64,000 nucleotides of DNA from Candidatus Tumulicola sp. (GTDB lineage Bacteria > Vulcanimicrobiota > Vulcanimicrobiia > Vulcanimicrobiales > Vulcanimicrobiaceae), in assembly GCA_036490475.1 (NCBI GenBank), contig DASXDT010000006.1, positions 1 to 64,000 of the forward strand, given 5' to 3'. Shown here piece after piece: positions 489 to 16,226 of this stretch. A program made the position numbers and the translations under genes. Each line of letters starts with the position of its first letter. The stretch's first letter is position 1. The notes beneath the pieces are model-generated. The model had not been told where the DNA came from and did not search any database. It saw nothing but the letters and a program-made list of their open reading frames with translations.

Positions 489-795
489 TGGGATGGCCGG
501 GACTCGAACCCGGACGCCCTTTCGGGCTGCAGATTTTCGCACCACTTCGGCTTTCGCCGCCGCAACGTATTGCGTTCGTGGTCCGGACTGTGCCTTGACC
601 GTGTGAACGATTCGTTCAGGTAGGCCGCGCCCGTCCAGTCTCTACACCTTCCCGTTTTACACGGGCTTGGCTCGGCGTCGTCACGTCACGCGACAGAGAG
701 TTCGCCGAATTTGAGCGCATCCCGCAAGCAGTTTCCCGGCTTGCGGCTCAACGTTAGGTTAAGTCTGCTGTGTCTACCGATTCCACCACCATCCC
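489..795 (-). tRNA. tRNA-Leu(UAA) interrupted by a group I intron
   Basis: Exon 1 is 795-761 and exon 2 is 537-489. Spliced together they give an 84-nt class II tRNA: acceptor GGGATGG/CCATCCC, D arm, anticodon stem GCAGA/TCTGC with loop CTTAAAA (anticodon UAA), long variable arm GCCC-GAAA-GGGC, T arm CCGGG-TTCGAGT-CCCGG and discriminator A. CCA is not encoded. The intron (538-760) splits the anticodon between U34 and A35, the same position as in cyanobacterial and plastid tRNA-Leu(UAA). The tRNA 5' end is only 4 bp after the upstream same-strand CDS, which suggests co-transcription. I first considered tmRNA for this region, but the complete tRNA halves rule it out. Confidence 0.96.
538..760 (-). 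ncRNA. Group I self-splicing intron (cyanobacterial tRNA-Leu, IC3-like)
   Basis: The 223-nt intron begins after U34 and ends with the invariant terminal G. Visible core elements in order: the GTTGAGCC guide region, whose GAG can pair with CUU of exon 1 to give the U-G splice-site wobble; P2 hairpin CCGCAAGC/GCTTGCGG; a P-like element CTCAAATTCGGCGAA; a Q-like element GCCGAGCCAAGCCC that pairs with it to form P4; P6 CCCGT/ACGGG; an R-like element GTAGAGACTGGACGG; an S-like element AAGGCACAGTCC; and a P9-type helix GGACCAC/GTGGT. Element order and wording closely follow the cyanobacterial tRNA-Leu intron as I know it. There is no endonuclease ORF. Confidence 0.93.
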
Positions 796-799
796 ACGA

Positions 800-1042
800 T
801 TATTGTTCGTAATGCTCCACGACTTCTTCGGTGCGCAAATGCGCGACCGACGGGTCTTGCCCGGCGTCGCGACGTGCGCGCCGTTGACGCAATAAATCCC
901 AAAACCGGTCGAGCTGTACTTCGAGTGCCTCGAGCCGACCGCGATCCTCATCGGATAGCTTGCCGTTCTCTCCGTGCTCGAGCAGCGCGTGCTCTTCGGT
1001 GACCAAGCTCGCGATGTGATCGCGAATCTGCGTATCGTCCAT
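800..1042 (-). CDS. DUF2630 family small protein
   Basis: An 80-residue acidic, helical protein. It matches the pattern of the DUF2630 family: an N-terminal MDDTQIRDHIASLVTEEH helix, a central LEALEVQLDRFWDLLRQRR segment (about residues 38-56) and a conserved tail ending in EEVVEHY. Molecular function of the family is not known. It is the last protein gene of the hrcA-led minus-strand run and ends 4 bp before the tRNA-Leu. The family call rests on recalled sequence pattern only. Confidence 0.8.
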   Translation of the reverse strand: MDDTQIRDHIASLVTEEHALLEHGENGKLSDEDRGRLEALEVQLDRFWDLLRQRRARRDAGQDPSVAHLRTEEVVEHYEQ

Positions 1043-1078: not shown

Positions 1079-2014
1079 TCAGCGCCCGCCGGCTCCTTCT
1101 GCTTCTGCCCGCTCGACTCGGTCGAGCAACACGCCCAAGAGTAAGTCCCAACGCGACGCAACCGAAAATCGTGCCTCGAGCAATTCCAAGGCCGTGTCCA
1201 GGATGACGATGCCGGCCGGCAAGATGTCGGCTCGCTGAACGCGCATGCCCCGCATCCGCTTACGGCGGTCGAGATCGAGCGAGCACAACCGCCGCAGCAC
1301 GCGTTGCAAATCGGCGCGCGATAAATCGACCACATCGTGCCCCATCAGACCACCACGGGCGATCGCGCCTGCGGTGGACGCCGAGCCACCCACGAGTGCC
1401 ACCTTCGCACCTCGCTCGAAACCGCGTAACGGTTCCAAAGCAACCCGCGCCAGCGCGCGAGCACGTTCGATCGCCGCTGCCGGCACTGGACCGGTCCGGC
1501 CATTCAGCTCGGGGACCGCCTCGGTCAAGACGACCGCCCCGATCTCGCACGAAACGACTGCGTCCGGCTCGATCCCAGTACCGATGGCGAACTCGGTGCT
1601 GCCGCCACCCGAATCGACAACGCCGATTCGCTCGCCTGGAATCGGCCGCACGGCCGCTGCGGCACCGCGATACGCCGCGCGCGCCTCTTCCGGCCCGCTC
1701 AGGACGTCCATCCGCACGCCAAACCGCTCGCGCACCAACTCGAGAAAGAGGGTGGCGTTGTCGGCTCGCCGCACCGCGCTCGTGGTAACGGCCCACAACC
1801 GGTCGTAGCGGCCGGCCAACTCGCGATGCAGCCGGTCGAGAGCCCGCAACGTGCGAGCGATCGCTTCGGGGCGCAAATCGCCGGTGCGGCCGAGGCCTTC
1901 GCCTATTCGAGTGCCGATCGAACGCGCAAAGGGAACGCGAATGCTGTCGGTGTCATAATCTGCCAGCAGGCCGCGCGTGGAGTTGGTGCCGACGGATAGG
2001 ACGGCGCCGGTCAC
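1079..2014 (-). CDS. Ppx/GppA family phosphatase (exopolyphosphatase-like)
   Basis: A 311-residue protein of the ASKHA-fold Ppx/GppA family, whose members hydrolyse inorganic polyphosphate or pppGpp. Visible motifs are the N-terminal phosphate-1 loop around VGTNSTRGLLADYD (residues 8-21, with TNST where GSNS is typical), TSAVRRADN (78-86), SGPEEARAAYRG (106-117) and the phosphate-2 loop DSGGGSTEF (134-142). Length fits the short single-module class without the C-terminal HD domain. It starts at GTG, 3 bp after the preceding gene's stop. Sequence alone does not separate polyP from pppGpp hydrolysis. Confidence 0.88.
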   Translation of the reverse strand: MTGAVLSVGTNSTRGLLADYDTDSIRVPFARSIGTRIGEGLGRTGDLRPEAIARTLRALDRLHRELAGRYDRLWAVTTSAVRRADNATLFLELVRERFGVRMDVLSGPEEARAAYRGAAAAVRPIPGERIGVVDSGGGSTEFAIGTGIEPDAVVSCEIGAVVLTEAVPELNGRTGPVPAAAIERARALARVALEPLRGFERGAKVALVGGSASTAGAIARGGLMGHDVVDLSRADLQRVLRRLCSLDLDRRKRMRGMRVQRADILPAGIVILDTALELLEARFSVASRWDLLLGVLLDRVERAEAEGAGGR

Positions 2015-12841: not shown

Positions 12842-13515
12842 GCGACGGCATCGTCCCCCACGACAACCATCCGCGCGAGCTCGAGGGAGATCGCGTGGCG
12901 TACGTCGCCGACTTCGACCGTTACCGGTCCGCCCAATGGCGCTTTTTCGAGAACGCGCACCTGGGCGCCGGGGCACAGACCTACTTCACCGAGATATCGC
13001 AGAATTTCAGGTACGCCGTCGGTGACGCCGCTGACGACAGCGTCGCGTCCTGCCTCGATTTGCGCTAGGGGGACGCCGGTGCGGACGGGCTCGCTGAGGT
13101 CGCGCGACGGAATCGGATGACCGTGCGGGCAGGCTTGCGGATCGCCGAGCAACTCGACGAGCTTGTCTTCGACGCGCTGCGAAATCGCGTGTTCCAGCAT
13201 GCACGCCTCGGCGTTGACTTCGTCCCACGACATGCCGAGCACGTCGGTCAGCAGACGTTCGGCCAGCCGATGCCGGCGTAAGATGCGCACACCGACTTCG
13301 AGCCCCTTGCGCGTAAGCTTCACCTCGCCGCGCGCGACGTACGCTACGTAGCCCTCTTTATCGAGTTTTTTGAGCATACCCGACGCCGAGGCCGGCGTTA
13401 CGCCCATGGCCGACGCCAGGCCGGACGTGGTTACGCCTGGGCCTTCGAATTCGAGGCGGTAGATCGACTCGAGATACTCCTCGACCGATTCATCGAAATG
13501 ACTATGTCCCGACAT
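12838..13515 (-). CDS. DtxR/MntR-family metal-dependent transcriptional regulator
   Basis: A 225-residue repressor. An N-terminal winged helix (SVEEYLESIYRLEFEGPGVTT, then LASAMGVTPASASGMLKKL) is followed by the dimerisation/metal-binding helix region with Cys/Glu/His ligand candidates (EVNAEACMLEHAISQRVEDKL, read in part) and a C-terminal FeoA/SH3-like domain (residues about 145-225). It likely senses Fe(II) or Mn(II). The start at 13515 overlaps the end of the flavoprotein gene by 14 bp. Target genes are not obvious nearby. Confidence 0.9.
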   Translation of the reverse strand: MSGHSHFDESVEEYLESIYRLEFEGPGVTTSGLASAMGVTPASASGMLKKLDKEGYVAYVARGEVKLTRKGLEVGVRILRRHRLAERLLTDVLGMSWDEVNAEACMLEHAISQRVEDKLVELLGDPQACPHGHPIPSRDLSEPVRTGVPLAQIEAGRDAVVSGVTDGVPEILRYLGEVGLCPGAQVRVLEKAPLGGPVTVEVGDVRHAISLELARMVVVGDDAVA

Positions 13516-15160
13516 GCTCCCCTGTAGTTCTACGCGGCGGCTGCAGTTCCGCGATTGACGATAGGAACTCGTGCACCATCGAGATCGAACTCGACCCTTC
13601 GCCGACGCCGGAAGCGACGCGTTTGAGCGAGTCGAGACGGGCATCGCCGACGGCGAACACGCCTGGCTGGTTAGTTTCCAAGAAGTACGGATGGCGCTCG
13701 AGCGGCCACGGAGCGCGAGCTTCGATCACATCCGGACCGGTGAGGATGAACCCGTCGCGGTCGCGGGCAACGACGCCCTCGAGCCAATCGGTGCGCGGCA
13801 CGGCGCCGATGAACACGAACAATCCCGCCGTGTCGACCGTCTTCGACGTTCCGTCGCCGTTGTTCGCGATCGTAATACGCTCCAACCGCTGCGCGCCGTG
13901 CGCCGCGGTTATTTCAGACGACGTGAGCACCGAAATGTTCGCTGAAGCGACGATGCGATCGACCAGATACTGTGACATACTTTTTCCGAGGTCGGTGCCG
14001 CGGATCACGATCGTAACGGTTTTCGCATATCCCGAAAAATTCAGCGCGGCTTGTCCTGCGGAGTTGCCGCCACCCACGATATGCACGTCGTTTCCCGCAA
14101 CGGCGAACGCTTCGGTTTGCGCGGCGCCGTAATACACGCCGCGATTGACCAACTCTTCGCAACCTTGCGCGTTGAGCGAACGGTATTCGATGCCCGGCGC
14201 GAGCACGACCGCGCGCGCCAGCACCGACTGTCCGTCCTCCAGTGACAGCTTGCGGTCGCCGGCCTCACCCGTGAGGCGGCAGACTTCGCGAACGACGACG
14301 ATGTCCGCGCCGAACCGCTGCGCCTGTCGCAACGCACGATCGGCCAAGTCCTCACCCGAAATGCCGGCCGGAAACCCGAGATAATTTTCGATTCGCGATG
14401 ACGTGCCGGCTTGTCCGCCGGGGGCGTACCGATCGATCAATAACGCGTCGAGCCCTTCGGACGCTCCATACACCGCGGCGGCAAGACCGGCTGGCCCGGC
14501 GCCGACGATCGCGACGTCGTAGTGCGCCTGTTTCGGCACGGCCGACATGCCGAGACGTTCGGCCAAATCGCGAATTCCAGGCGATTTCAACGGCGCGCCT
14601 TCGTAAAAGTTCACTTCGCATTCCGGACCGTCGCGTTCGGTCCAGTCGAATGGGACGTGCATGCGCGACAAAAAGTCACGCAACTGATGACACGCCCCCG
14701 AACGGCTATCGCCGACTACCGTGCAAACCGTCGACGGATGCTCGATCGCAAGATGGCGTACGAGCGCGACACGGCGCCCCATGTTGTTGCTCACGGTCTC
14801 TGCGAAACGCTCGTCGTCGTGCATCATGCGCCAAAAGATCGTGCCGTCGACTCGGGCGACCCGCACATCGGTAATGGCTCGCACGCCGGCGAGCGCGCTC
14901 GCGCCAAGCAACAACGGGATTTCGCCGAAACCGTCGCCCGGCTCGTACTCGCCGAGCTCGGTCGGTCGGCCGTTCATCGACTTTACGATGGCGGCGCGGC
15001 CCTCGACCAGTATGTAAAAACGCGCTCCTTCGTCTTCACGCACCACCCAGTCGCCGGCCAGTACGTGCAGGTCGGCGCAGCGGCGAGCGAACCAGGTAAC
15101 GTGTTCGGGCGCGCAGCCGGCGAATAAAGAAAGACCGACGAGGTCCGAAAGGTCTAGCAT
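13502..15160 (-). CDS. Cyclic-nucleotide-binding domain fused to thioredoxin-reductase-like flavoprotein
   Basis: A 552-residue fusion. Residues 1-135 form a cNMP/CRP-like beta-barrel (GDWVVREDEGARFYILVEGRA, in part). Residues about 145-205 look like a degenerate glutaredoxin-like spacer without CxxC. Residues 213-540 form a TrxR-type two-Rossmann flavoprotein with GAGPAG (220-225), GGQAGTSSRIENYLGFP (248-264), a second nucleotide motif VGGGNSAGQAA (362-372) and FAVGDAR. The redox-active CxxC expected near residues 343-348 is replaced by YYGAAQTEA. It may therefore transfer electrons directly instead of to thioredoxin. The ATG at 15160 restores a natural CRP-like N-terminus. Confidence 0.85.
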   Translation of the reverse strand: MLDLSDLVGLSLFAGCAPEHVTWFARRCADLHVLAGDWVVREDEGARFYILVEGRAAIVKSMNGRPTELGEYEPGDGFGEIPLLLGASALAGVRAITDVRVARVDGTIFWRMMHDDERFAETVSNNMGRRVALVRHLAIEHPSTVCTVVGDSRSGACHQLRDFLSRMHVPFDWTERDGPECEVNFYEGAPLKSPGIRDLAERLGMSAVPKQAHYDVAIVGAGPAGLAAAVYGASEGLDALLIDRYAPGGQAGTSSRIENYLGFPAGISGEDLADRALRQAQRFGADIVVVREVCRLTGEAGDRKLSLEDGQSVLARAVVLAPGIEYRSLNAQGCEELVNRGVYYGAAQTEAFAVAGNDVHIVGGGNSAGQAALNFSGYAKTVTIVIRGTDLGKSMSQYLVDRIVASANISVLTSSEITAAHGAQRLERITIANNGDGTSKTVDTAGLFVFIGAVPRTDWLEGVVARDRDGFILTGPDVIEARAPWPLERHPYFLETNQPGVFAVGDARLDSLKRVASGVGEGSSSISMVHEFLSSIAELQPPRRTTGEHVGT

Positions 15161-15188
15161 GGTCGCCCTTAAACGCCAAGCCCGGGCG

Positions 15189-16226
15189 TTAGGGTTGCGC
15201 TTCCTGACCGGCAGGTGGGACGTCCGGCGGCAAAAGCGCTCGTAACTGCCGCTTGAGATCGGCGTCCGCGAAGCTGCCGTCAACCGCGTTTCGGACGAAT
15301 CGCAGCAGCGTTTGCGAGCCGCACGCCGCCTCCACGCGCGCATATTCTCGTTCGATCGTCGTGCCGAACATCGGCGGATCATCGGCATCGATGACAACGA
15401 CGCAACCTTCGTGGTCGAAGCGTTCGAAGGCGTCACCGCGCGGTAACGCGGCGCCGGTGCGATCGTTCGAAGTCGGGCAAACTTCCAGCGGTATTTGGCT
15501 CTCTCGCAGGAGCCGCACGACGCTATCGTCCTGTAACGCCGCGATGCCGTGGCCGATCCGCTCGGCGTGCAGCAGTTCGACGGCGTCGCGAACGCTTTGT
15601 GGACCGGCCGCTTCGCCCGCGTGCGCCACACAGTGCAAACCGGCGGCGCGCGCATAGTCGAACGACTCGACGAAGAGTTCGGGCGGAAAACGCGACTCGT
15701 CGCCACCCAATCCGATGCCGACCACGCCGTCGCCCGCAGCCTCCACCGCTAAGCGCGCCGTCCGCAATGCGCTCTCTGCGCCGAAATTGCGCGTGAGGTC
15801 GACGATTAACTGAAAACGCGTCTCGCCACCGGCATGTAATTCCGCGGTGATATCGCGCAGTGTCGCGCGCACGTCGAGTTCGGGATGGAAGAACGTCCAA
15901 ACCGACGGCGATACAAACAGCTCGCCATACACGACGTTTTGATCGCGCGCCCCTTCGGCGAACTCTCGCGCGAGACGCGCGAACCGATCGGGCGTCGAAA
16001 GCGTTCGATTAACCGCGGCGAAGCCGTACAGAAAGTCGCGAAACGATAGGAAGCGATACGGGTCGGCCGCGCTGACGGACTCGCTCGCCTCGTCGCCCGA
16101 GCCATCCGGACGGTAGCGAAGCGGCAGGCCCTGATCGCGCGCAAACTCGACGAAGGTCGCCGGGCGCAAGCTGCCCTCGAGGTGACAGTGCAGATGGATT
16201 TTGGGAATTGGACTGGCAAGGCTCAC
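15189..16226 (-). CDS. add: Adenosine deaminase
   Basis: A 345-residue metal-dependent TIM-barrel deaminase converting adenosine to inosine (purine salvage). Zinc ligands and catalytic residues are visible: HLHCHLEGS (residues 11-19), VAHAGEAAGPQSV with the catalytic Glu, ERIGHGIA and the C-terminal DADDPPMFGT (Asp pair). The GTG at 16226 gives the usual short lead before HLHCH; the open frame farther upstream runs towards the initiator tRNA and is unlikely to be coding. Adenine deaminase of the same family is an alternative. Confidence 0.87.
   Translation of the reverse strand: MSLASPIPKIHLHCHLEGSLRPATFVEFARDQGLPLRYRPDGSGDEASESVSAADPYRFLSFRDFLYGFAAVNRTLSTPDRFARLAREFAEGARDQNVVYGELFVSPSVWTFFHPELDVRATLRDITAELHAGGETRFQLIVDLTRNFGAESALRTARLAVEAAGDGVVGIGLGGDESRFPPELFVESFDYARAAGLHCVAHAGEAAGPQSVRDAVELLHAERIGHGIAALQDDSVVRLLRESQIPLEVCPTSNDRTGAALPRGDAFERFDHEGCVVVIDADDPPMFGTTIEREYARVEAACGSQTLLRFVRNAVDGSFADADLKRQLRALLPPDVPPAGQEAQP

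Follow-up and report, generated by a model that had tools for sequence, protein, structure and literature searches.

The intron of the tRNA-Leu(UAA) gene, trnL(UAA), is the textbook case of an intron older than chloroplasts, and the argument for this age is that it occupies the same site in the same gene. The locus described here raises the question of how an intron at this site came to lie in a genome outside the cyanobacteria, and whether the interrupted gene is still in use. It was found in a 64,000-nucleotide stretch of DNA, referred to as the window, whose host, an uncultured bacterium of soil type, was placed by named relatives in Candidatus Eremiobacterota (Vulcanimicrobiota). The preliminary description of the locus had reported a cyanobacterial-type group I intron in a chromosome that did not look cyanobacterial, and this part of the claim about the host agrees with the placement.

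The tRNA-Leu(UAA) gene lies at positions 489-795 on the minus strand and carries a group I intron of 223 nt (538-760) directly after U34. The minus strand of 489-795 reads GGGATGGTGGTGGAATCGGTAGACACAGCAGACTT - 223 nt - AAAATCTGCAGCCCGAAAGGGCGTCCGGGTTCGAGTCCCGGCCATCCCA, and the CCA of the tRNA is not encoded in the gene. With introns allowed, ARAGORN reports tRNA-Leu(taa) and an intron of 223 nt ('gactt-Intron-aaaat'). The joined exons are recognised as a complete tRNA-Leu(UAA), and the insertion point is the site of the cyanobacterial and plastid trnL(UAA) intron. By this prediction, the intron length and the coordinates given previously were exact. RF00028 aligns end to end over 770-563 on the minus strand with 30.4 bits and an E-value of 5.8e-6 (cmscan), and this is its only match in the 3.32-Mb assembly. 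The check with Infernal and Rfam that had been proposed thus recovered a group I core, at a score below the curated gathering score of 50. For this reason, a standard Rfam run overlooks the intron: at gathering thresholds it was missed, and the default scan reports a tRNA-Met only. Likewise, ARAGORN without the intron option called no tRNA in the unspliced 489-795 sequence. Genome annotation overlooks such genes, as default ARAGORN and standard Rfam together give no tRNA-Leu(UAA) here. No homing endonuclease is encoded in the 223-nt intron, whose longest stop-free stretch is 52 codons, as had been stated before.

The secondary structure was drawn by hand from P1 to P9, including the P3/P7 pseudoknot formed where P7 crosses P3, and scored on 26 aligned trnL introns (Table 1). 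Across these introns, 95.2% of the cells pair, compared to 82.9% in shuffles and 32-39% in slid controls. Changes on both sides were found for 29 pairs, and the observed values were reached by none of 500 shuffles; the covariation score was 0.332 versus 0.120 in shuffled alignments (0/500). All RF00028 core helices are retained in the 26 relatives, and covariation is located in the peripheral helices. P3, P6 and P7 do not vary and P4 has one pair changed on one side, while P2, P6a, P8 and P9b vary with compensation. The U.G pair at the splice site is unvaried in 26/26 relatives, the terminal G is present in 26/26 alignment rows, and a GAAA-type loop closes P9b in nearly all 26 introns. The P, Q, R and S elements are present, and the group I intron at U34/A35 of the preliminary description is corroborated by ARAGORN, RF00028 and the covariation in 26 introns. 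Through the core, the window intron aligns with the IC3 introns of Anabaena and Azoarcus; these comparators and the tobacco plastid intron are provisional reference sequences.

Table 1. Coordinates of the interrupted tRNA-Leu(UAA) gene, its intron elements and the adjoining genes in the window.
Feature	Position	Strand	Basis
5' exon of tRNA-Leu(UAA), G1 to U34, 35 nt	761..795	minus	ARAGORN with introns; sequence GGGATGG...GCAGACTT
Group I intron, 223 nt, between U34 and A35	538..760	minus	ARAGORN; RF00028; covariation
P1: 5' exon CUU and internal guide, U34.G wobble at 5' splice site (U 761, G 749)	747..763	minus	26 relatives
P2 hairpin	723..745	minus	double changes in 6/7 pairs
P3 5' strand	713..718	minus	partner 627-632; pairing invariant in 26
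P4-P5 arm	672..708	minus	P4 100% paired; compensatory changes in P5a
P6-P6a arm	646..671	minus	P6a: double changes in 4/4 pairs
P7 5' strand, R element, guanosine-binding helix	637..642	minus	partner 585-589; invariant in 26
P3 3' strand	627..632	minus	partner 713-718; 26 relatives
P8 hairpin	597..626	minus	distal stem: double changes in 5/5 pairs
P7 3' strand, S element	585..589	minus	26 relatives
P9, P9a and GAAA-capped P9b (loop 552-555)	541..582	minus	P9b 100% paired, double changes
Conserved terminal G of intron	538	minus	
3' exon of tRNA-Leu(UAA), A35 to discriminator A73, 49 nt	489..537	minus	ARAGORN
DUF2630 gene, upstream of trnL, in conserved ppx-DUF2630-trnL locus	800..1042	minus	PF10944 E 1.1e-26; synteny
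Ppx/GppA phosphatase gene, orthologous-locus marker	1079..2014	minus	PF02541 E 1e-40

A core pattern scan of genome contigs yielded 34 loci, 30 of them titled Candidatus Eremiobacterota or Vulcanimicrobiota. Two further loci, titled 'unidentified bacterium' and 'Proteobacteria' MAG, match G042 and G046, genomes that a kinship table puts in the window's class. The 'Proteobacteria' MAG (L056) was rejected as a sign of transfer, as it agrees with G046 in its trnL exons and in the ends of its intron. Only two loci are true outsiders, and their introns lie in other tRNAs: tRNA-Lys(UUU) in a Gemmatimonadetes MAG (L053, ~538-861), and a tRNA read as Arg(UCU), which ARAGORN calls Pyl, in a Planctomycetota MAG (L055). 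Both phyla are outside the usual lists of tRNA intron hosts; published bacterial tRNA group I introns are known from cyanobacteria, alpha- and betaproteobacteria (PMC4033280, PMC8450103).

Within the phylum, the trnL intron core motif (at most two mismatches) was found in 48 of 149 genomes, all belonging to one class and to its families f1 and f3, and model R1 agrees with this distribution. An uninterrupted trnL(UAA) is present in 40 of the 149 genomes when UAG tRNAs are set aside, and none of the 149 carries both forms. Matches of the GACTTAGAATC pattern in f3 genomes were rejected as intronless UAA genes, as they are tRNA-Leu(UAG). In the phylum's other classes, neither RF00028 nor the core motif gave a trnL intron, and such introns as occur there lie in tRNA-Asn, tRNA-Tyr and a probable tRNA-Thr. 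The trnL intron is a common, class-wide trait in Eremiobacterota. Among open-licence publications, no literature joining Eremiobacterota with group I introns was found.

The trnL locus is orthologous across the relatives, with the order ppx-[DUF2630]-trnL. The ppx gene adjoins trnL in both families, at 36 of the 47 loci with the intron and at 12 of the 20 without it. Intron distances track Ppx distances (Mantel r 0.52, 0/2000). On the Ppx tree, a single-gene proxy for the host tree, the presence and absence of the intron needs 11 changes (11 intronless rows), six of which are forced by starred branches, and presence is unclustered, with 500/500 shuffles as low. In the intronless relatives, the intron is exactly absent and the exons are identical to those of intron-bearing relatives at up to 83/85 sites. 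The simplest reading is one old intron with vertical descent and repeated precise loss within the class (at least six changes). Repeated gain within the class appears less likely, since the Eremiobacterota trnL introns form one clade (support 98/92) and track the locus. The idea that intron loss goes with a G.U pair in the anticodon stem was dropped after inspection by eye, since both classes have the pair.

Whether the gene must be spliced depends on the remaining tRNAs. The tRNA set of the assembly was rebuilt from an RF00005 search; the other 44 tRNAs include Leu CAA, CAG, GAG and UAG. No second tRNA-Leu(UAA) is among these 44 in the ~96% complete assembly, and the exact GACTTAAAATC junction is absent throughout it. 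UUA is used 23 times in nine well-supported genes of the window. As no other tRNA-Leu(UAA) was found and UUA codons are used, the reading of UUA should depend on splicing of the split gene, unless the 4% absent from the assembly contain a copy without the intron. The low Rfam score would fit a tRNA pseudogene with a decayed insertion that does not splice; however, the variable helices are kept by compensatory changes, the exons are intact, and UUA codons are in use with no other gene found to read them, which makes decay very improbable. Our main reading, to which a probability of roughly 0.88 is assigned, is that of a working IC3-like group I self-splicing intron in the only tRNA-Leu(UAA) found, which is old, mainly vertically inherited and repeatedly lost precisely, with catalysis attributed to it from its family.

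In this proposed mechanism, a guanosine bound at P7 would attack the phosphate that follows U34, where P1 has its U.G pair. The 3'-OH of U34 released in this step would then attack after the last intron G (538), so that U34 would be joined to A35 and the UAA anticodon, the reader of UUA, restored. The intron would have entered trnL before the sampled families of the Eremiobacterota class diverged, and it would have been handed down mostly by vertical descent, with no endonuclease of its own, and lost precisely several times. The window intron would be part of a wider IC3-like tRNA-intron family common to phages, proteobacteria and cyanobacteria.

Other group I introns occur in these hosts. The initiator tRNA-fMet is split after C34 by group I introns in L013, L015, L016, L020 and L021 (families f3 and f1), and some of these introns encode a homologue of I-Ssp6803I (PDB 2ost, E 3.5e-59). 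They represent a second tRNA intron type common to the window's class and cyanobacteria, whose tRNA-fMet intron carries I-Ssp6803I. The cyanobacterial fMet intron differs from the window intron in clade and tRNA, and the initiator tRNA gene of the window genome is uninterrupted. The 23S rRNA genes of many Eremiobacterota (L003, L006-L010, L014, L018, L019, L022) also contain group I introns, sometimes several per gene. As a separate observation, window positions 13502-15706 form a single long reading frame with a cyclic-nucleotide-binding domain and a thioredoxin-reductase-like flavoprotein.

Regarding the relation to known introns, the Anabaena PCC 7120-type trnL intron shares with the window intron the tRNA, the U34/A35 position, the P1-P9 anatomy and the lack of an endonuclease, but it lies outside the Eremiobacterota clade and belongs to another host phylum. 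The Azoarcus tRNA-Ile(CAU) group IC3 intron has the words AAATTCGGCGAA, ACGCCGAGCCAAGC, GGTGTAGAGACTNGACGG and AAGGCAYAGTCC in common with it (provisional sequence), whereas its tRNA and site are different. Core identity of the window intron is 59% to Anabaena and 61% to Azoarcus, both with the provisional sequences, and up to 75% to phage tRNA introns. In a weak tree with provisional comparators, phage tRNA introns and the Azoarcus tRNA-Ile intron lie next to the Eremiobacterota clade, and the Anabaena intron lies further away. The tree alignments comprise 127-145 columns, with cyanobacteria and plastids represented by a single provisional sequence each. AU tests were run with the retrieval motif removed and the plastid sequence added. 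A clade of Eremiobacterota and cyanobacterial/plastid introns was rejected (p 0.021; 127 columns, long branches, provisional comparators), while a clade with Azoarcus was not (p 0.145; same reduced alignment, provisional Azoarcus sequence). The Eremiobacterota clade falls just short of being intact in the reduced tree (two changes). These comparisons are a hint, not a result, that the window intron may stand apart from the cyanobacterial trnL introns and nearer to those of phages and Azoarcus. The grouping with cyanobacterial IC3 introns that the preliminary description had named as support did not appear in this weak tree. Its term 'cyanobacterial-type' holds for the insertion site and the IC3-like anatomy, but a specifically cyanobacterial origin or type is not supported, given the nearer phage and Azoarcus introns in the weak tree.

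Interrupted tRNA-Leu(TAA) genes with a putative group I intron are already published outside the cyanobacteria, in Beggiatoa BOGUAY and Ca. Thiomargarita nelsonii (PMC4853749); these hosts differ in being gammaproteobacterial, and the likeness is drawn from the published description. The Eremiobacterota case adds a clean evolutionary context. In cyanobacteria, the patchy presence of the trnL intron has been explained by one gain and many losses (PMC4476775).

Phages provide a further set of tRNA introns. A motif scan of viral contigs gave 39 with the window-type S/P9 motif; this set was retrieved with a motif from the window's own intron family, and closeness is therefore partly built in. In several of these contigs, tRNA-Leu(UAA) is split at the identical site by similar introns, and in some the neighbouring genes are those of a phage portal protein or a DNA polymerase. 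One group of phage contigs has almost identical introns (182-186 of 201-203 positions) following U34 in tRNA-Leu(UAA) and in tRNA-Lys(UUU), and the 5' exons of both end in CAGACTT. Group I introns split phage tRNA genes for Leu UAA, Lys UUU, Ile UAU and probably Met and others, and the phage introns from IMG/VR (L147, L149, L162, L167, L168, L178, L138 and others) split anticodon loops. Unlike the window intron, they are often larger and not confined to tRNA-Leu, and in the huge phage LR756511.1 the trnL intron is 700 nt long and carries a gene for an HNH endonuclease. In a 2014 review, the phage introns then known were all in protein genes (PMC3984707). Since phages carry introns after U34 in both tRNA-Leu(UAA) and tRNA-Lys(UUU), identity of the site alone is no proof of shared ancestry. 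Of cyanobacterial-type introns, one viral scan gave none and a second gave two contigs with such cores and no tRNA context; blastn of the provisional Anabaena intron sequence against plasmids gave no matches.

Further split genes were noted on mobile elements. Gordonia phage Daredevil (L139) has an unannotated tRNA-Lys(UUU) between its integrase gene and gene 53, interrupted by an intron of 238 nt with blastn similarity to the window intron. The plasmid pCTX-M3 (NC_004464.2, ~61.82-62.13 kb; L137 2381-2686) carries an unannotated tRNA-Leu(UAA) with a 221-nt group I intron. In enterobacterial resistance plasmids, the split tRNA-Leu(UAA) is located near aac(3)-IId and the gene of a small AAA-ATPase. 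Among 72,556 plasmid records, 1,280 contain it, as do 635 of the 5,426 complete genomes of E. coli, nearly always in identical form.

For the origin of the intron, the alternatives of deep ancestry or transfer had been proposed. Within the class, vertical inheritance accompanied by numerous losses agrees with the data; between phyla, phages are a plausible route. Acquisition of the cyanobacterial trnL(UAA) intron by an Eremiobacterota ancestor, perhaps with the tRNA locus, could explain the same tRNA, site and overall anatomy and the closely matching P, Q, R and S words of the provisional Anabaena sequence. Nevertheless, such an acquisition is improbable: many phage tRNA introns are more similar than the provisional Anabaena core, Azoarcus is at least as close as that core, the AU test rejects a joint clade, and the tRNA exons and flanking locus are Eremiobacterota-like. 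An intron that already lay in trnL when Cyanobacteriota and Eremiobacterota shared an ancestor, and that later disappeared from most other lineages, would be in line with the same site and with the vertical behaviour and frequent loss inside the class. The same AU test counts against it, as do the phylum's other classes, where introns were seen in other tRNAs and not in trnL, and the same-site trnL introns of phages and plasmids, which weaken site identity as evidence. Such deep ancestry is considered unlikely.

An introduction by phages, from a pool of tRNA introns jumping between tRNAs with an AGACUU 5' exon (Leu UAA, Lys UUU), is suggested by the viral contigs with the window-type motif and their same-site split tRNA-Leu(UAA) genes, the nearly identical introns in two phage tRNAs, and the huge-phage intron with its endonuclease. 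Phage introns are also the nearest outside the Eremiobacterota clade. However, the viral set was fetched by the window-family motif, and removing those columns weakens the resolution; moreover, no phage intron is nested in the Eremiobacterota clade, so that transfer could have run either way. Phage introduction is possible, although somewhat doubtful. In a broader form, the trnL(UAA) intron may be a branch of a phage-circulating tRNA-intron family that recognises AGACUU and settled independently in several phyla, including the ancestor of the Eremiobacterota class, where it was then inherited vertically and repeatedly lost. This proposal is tentative and falls a little short of an even chance.

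A class-wide, vertically inherited intron in Eremiobacterota, together with phage and resistance-plasmid introns at the identical site, means that site identity on its own does not prove descent. Eremiobacterota thereby add to cyanobacteria a second, independent large clade for measuring the age, loss rate and source of this intron.
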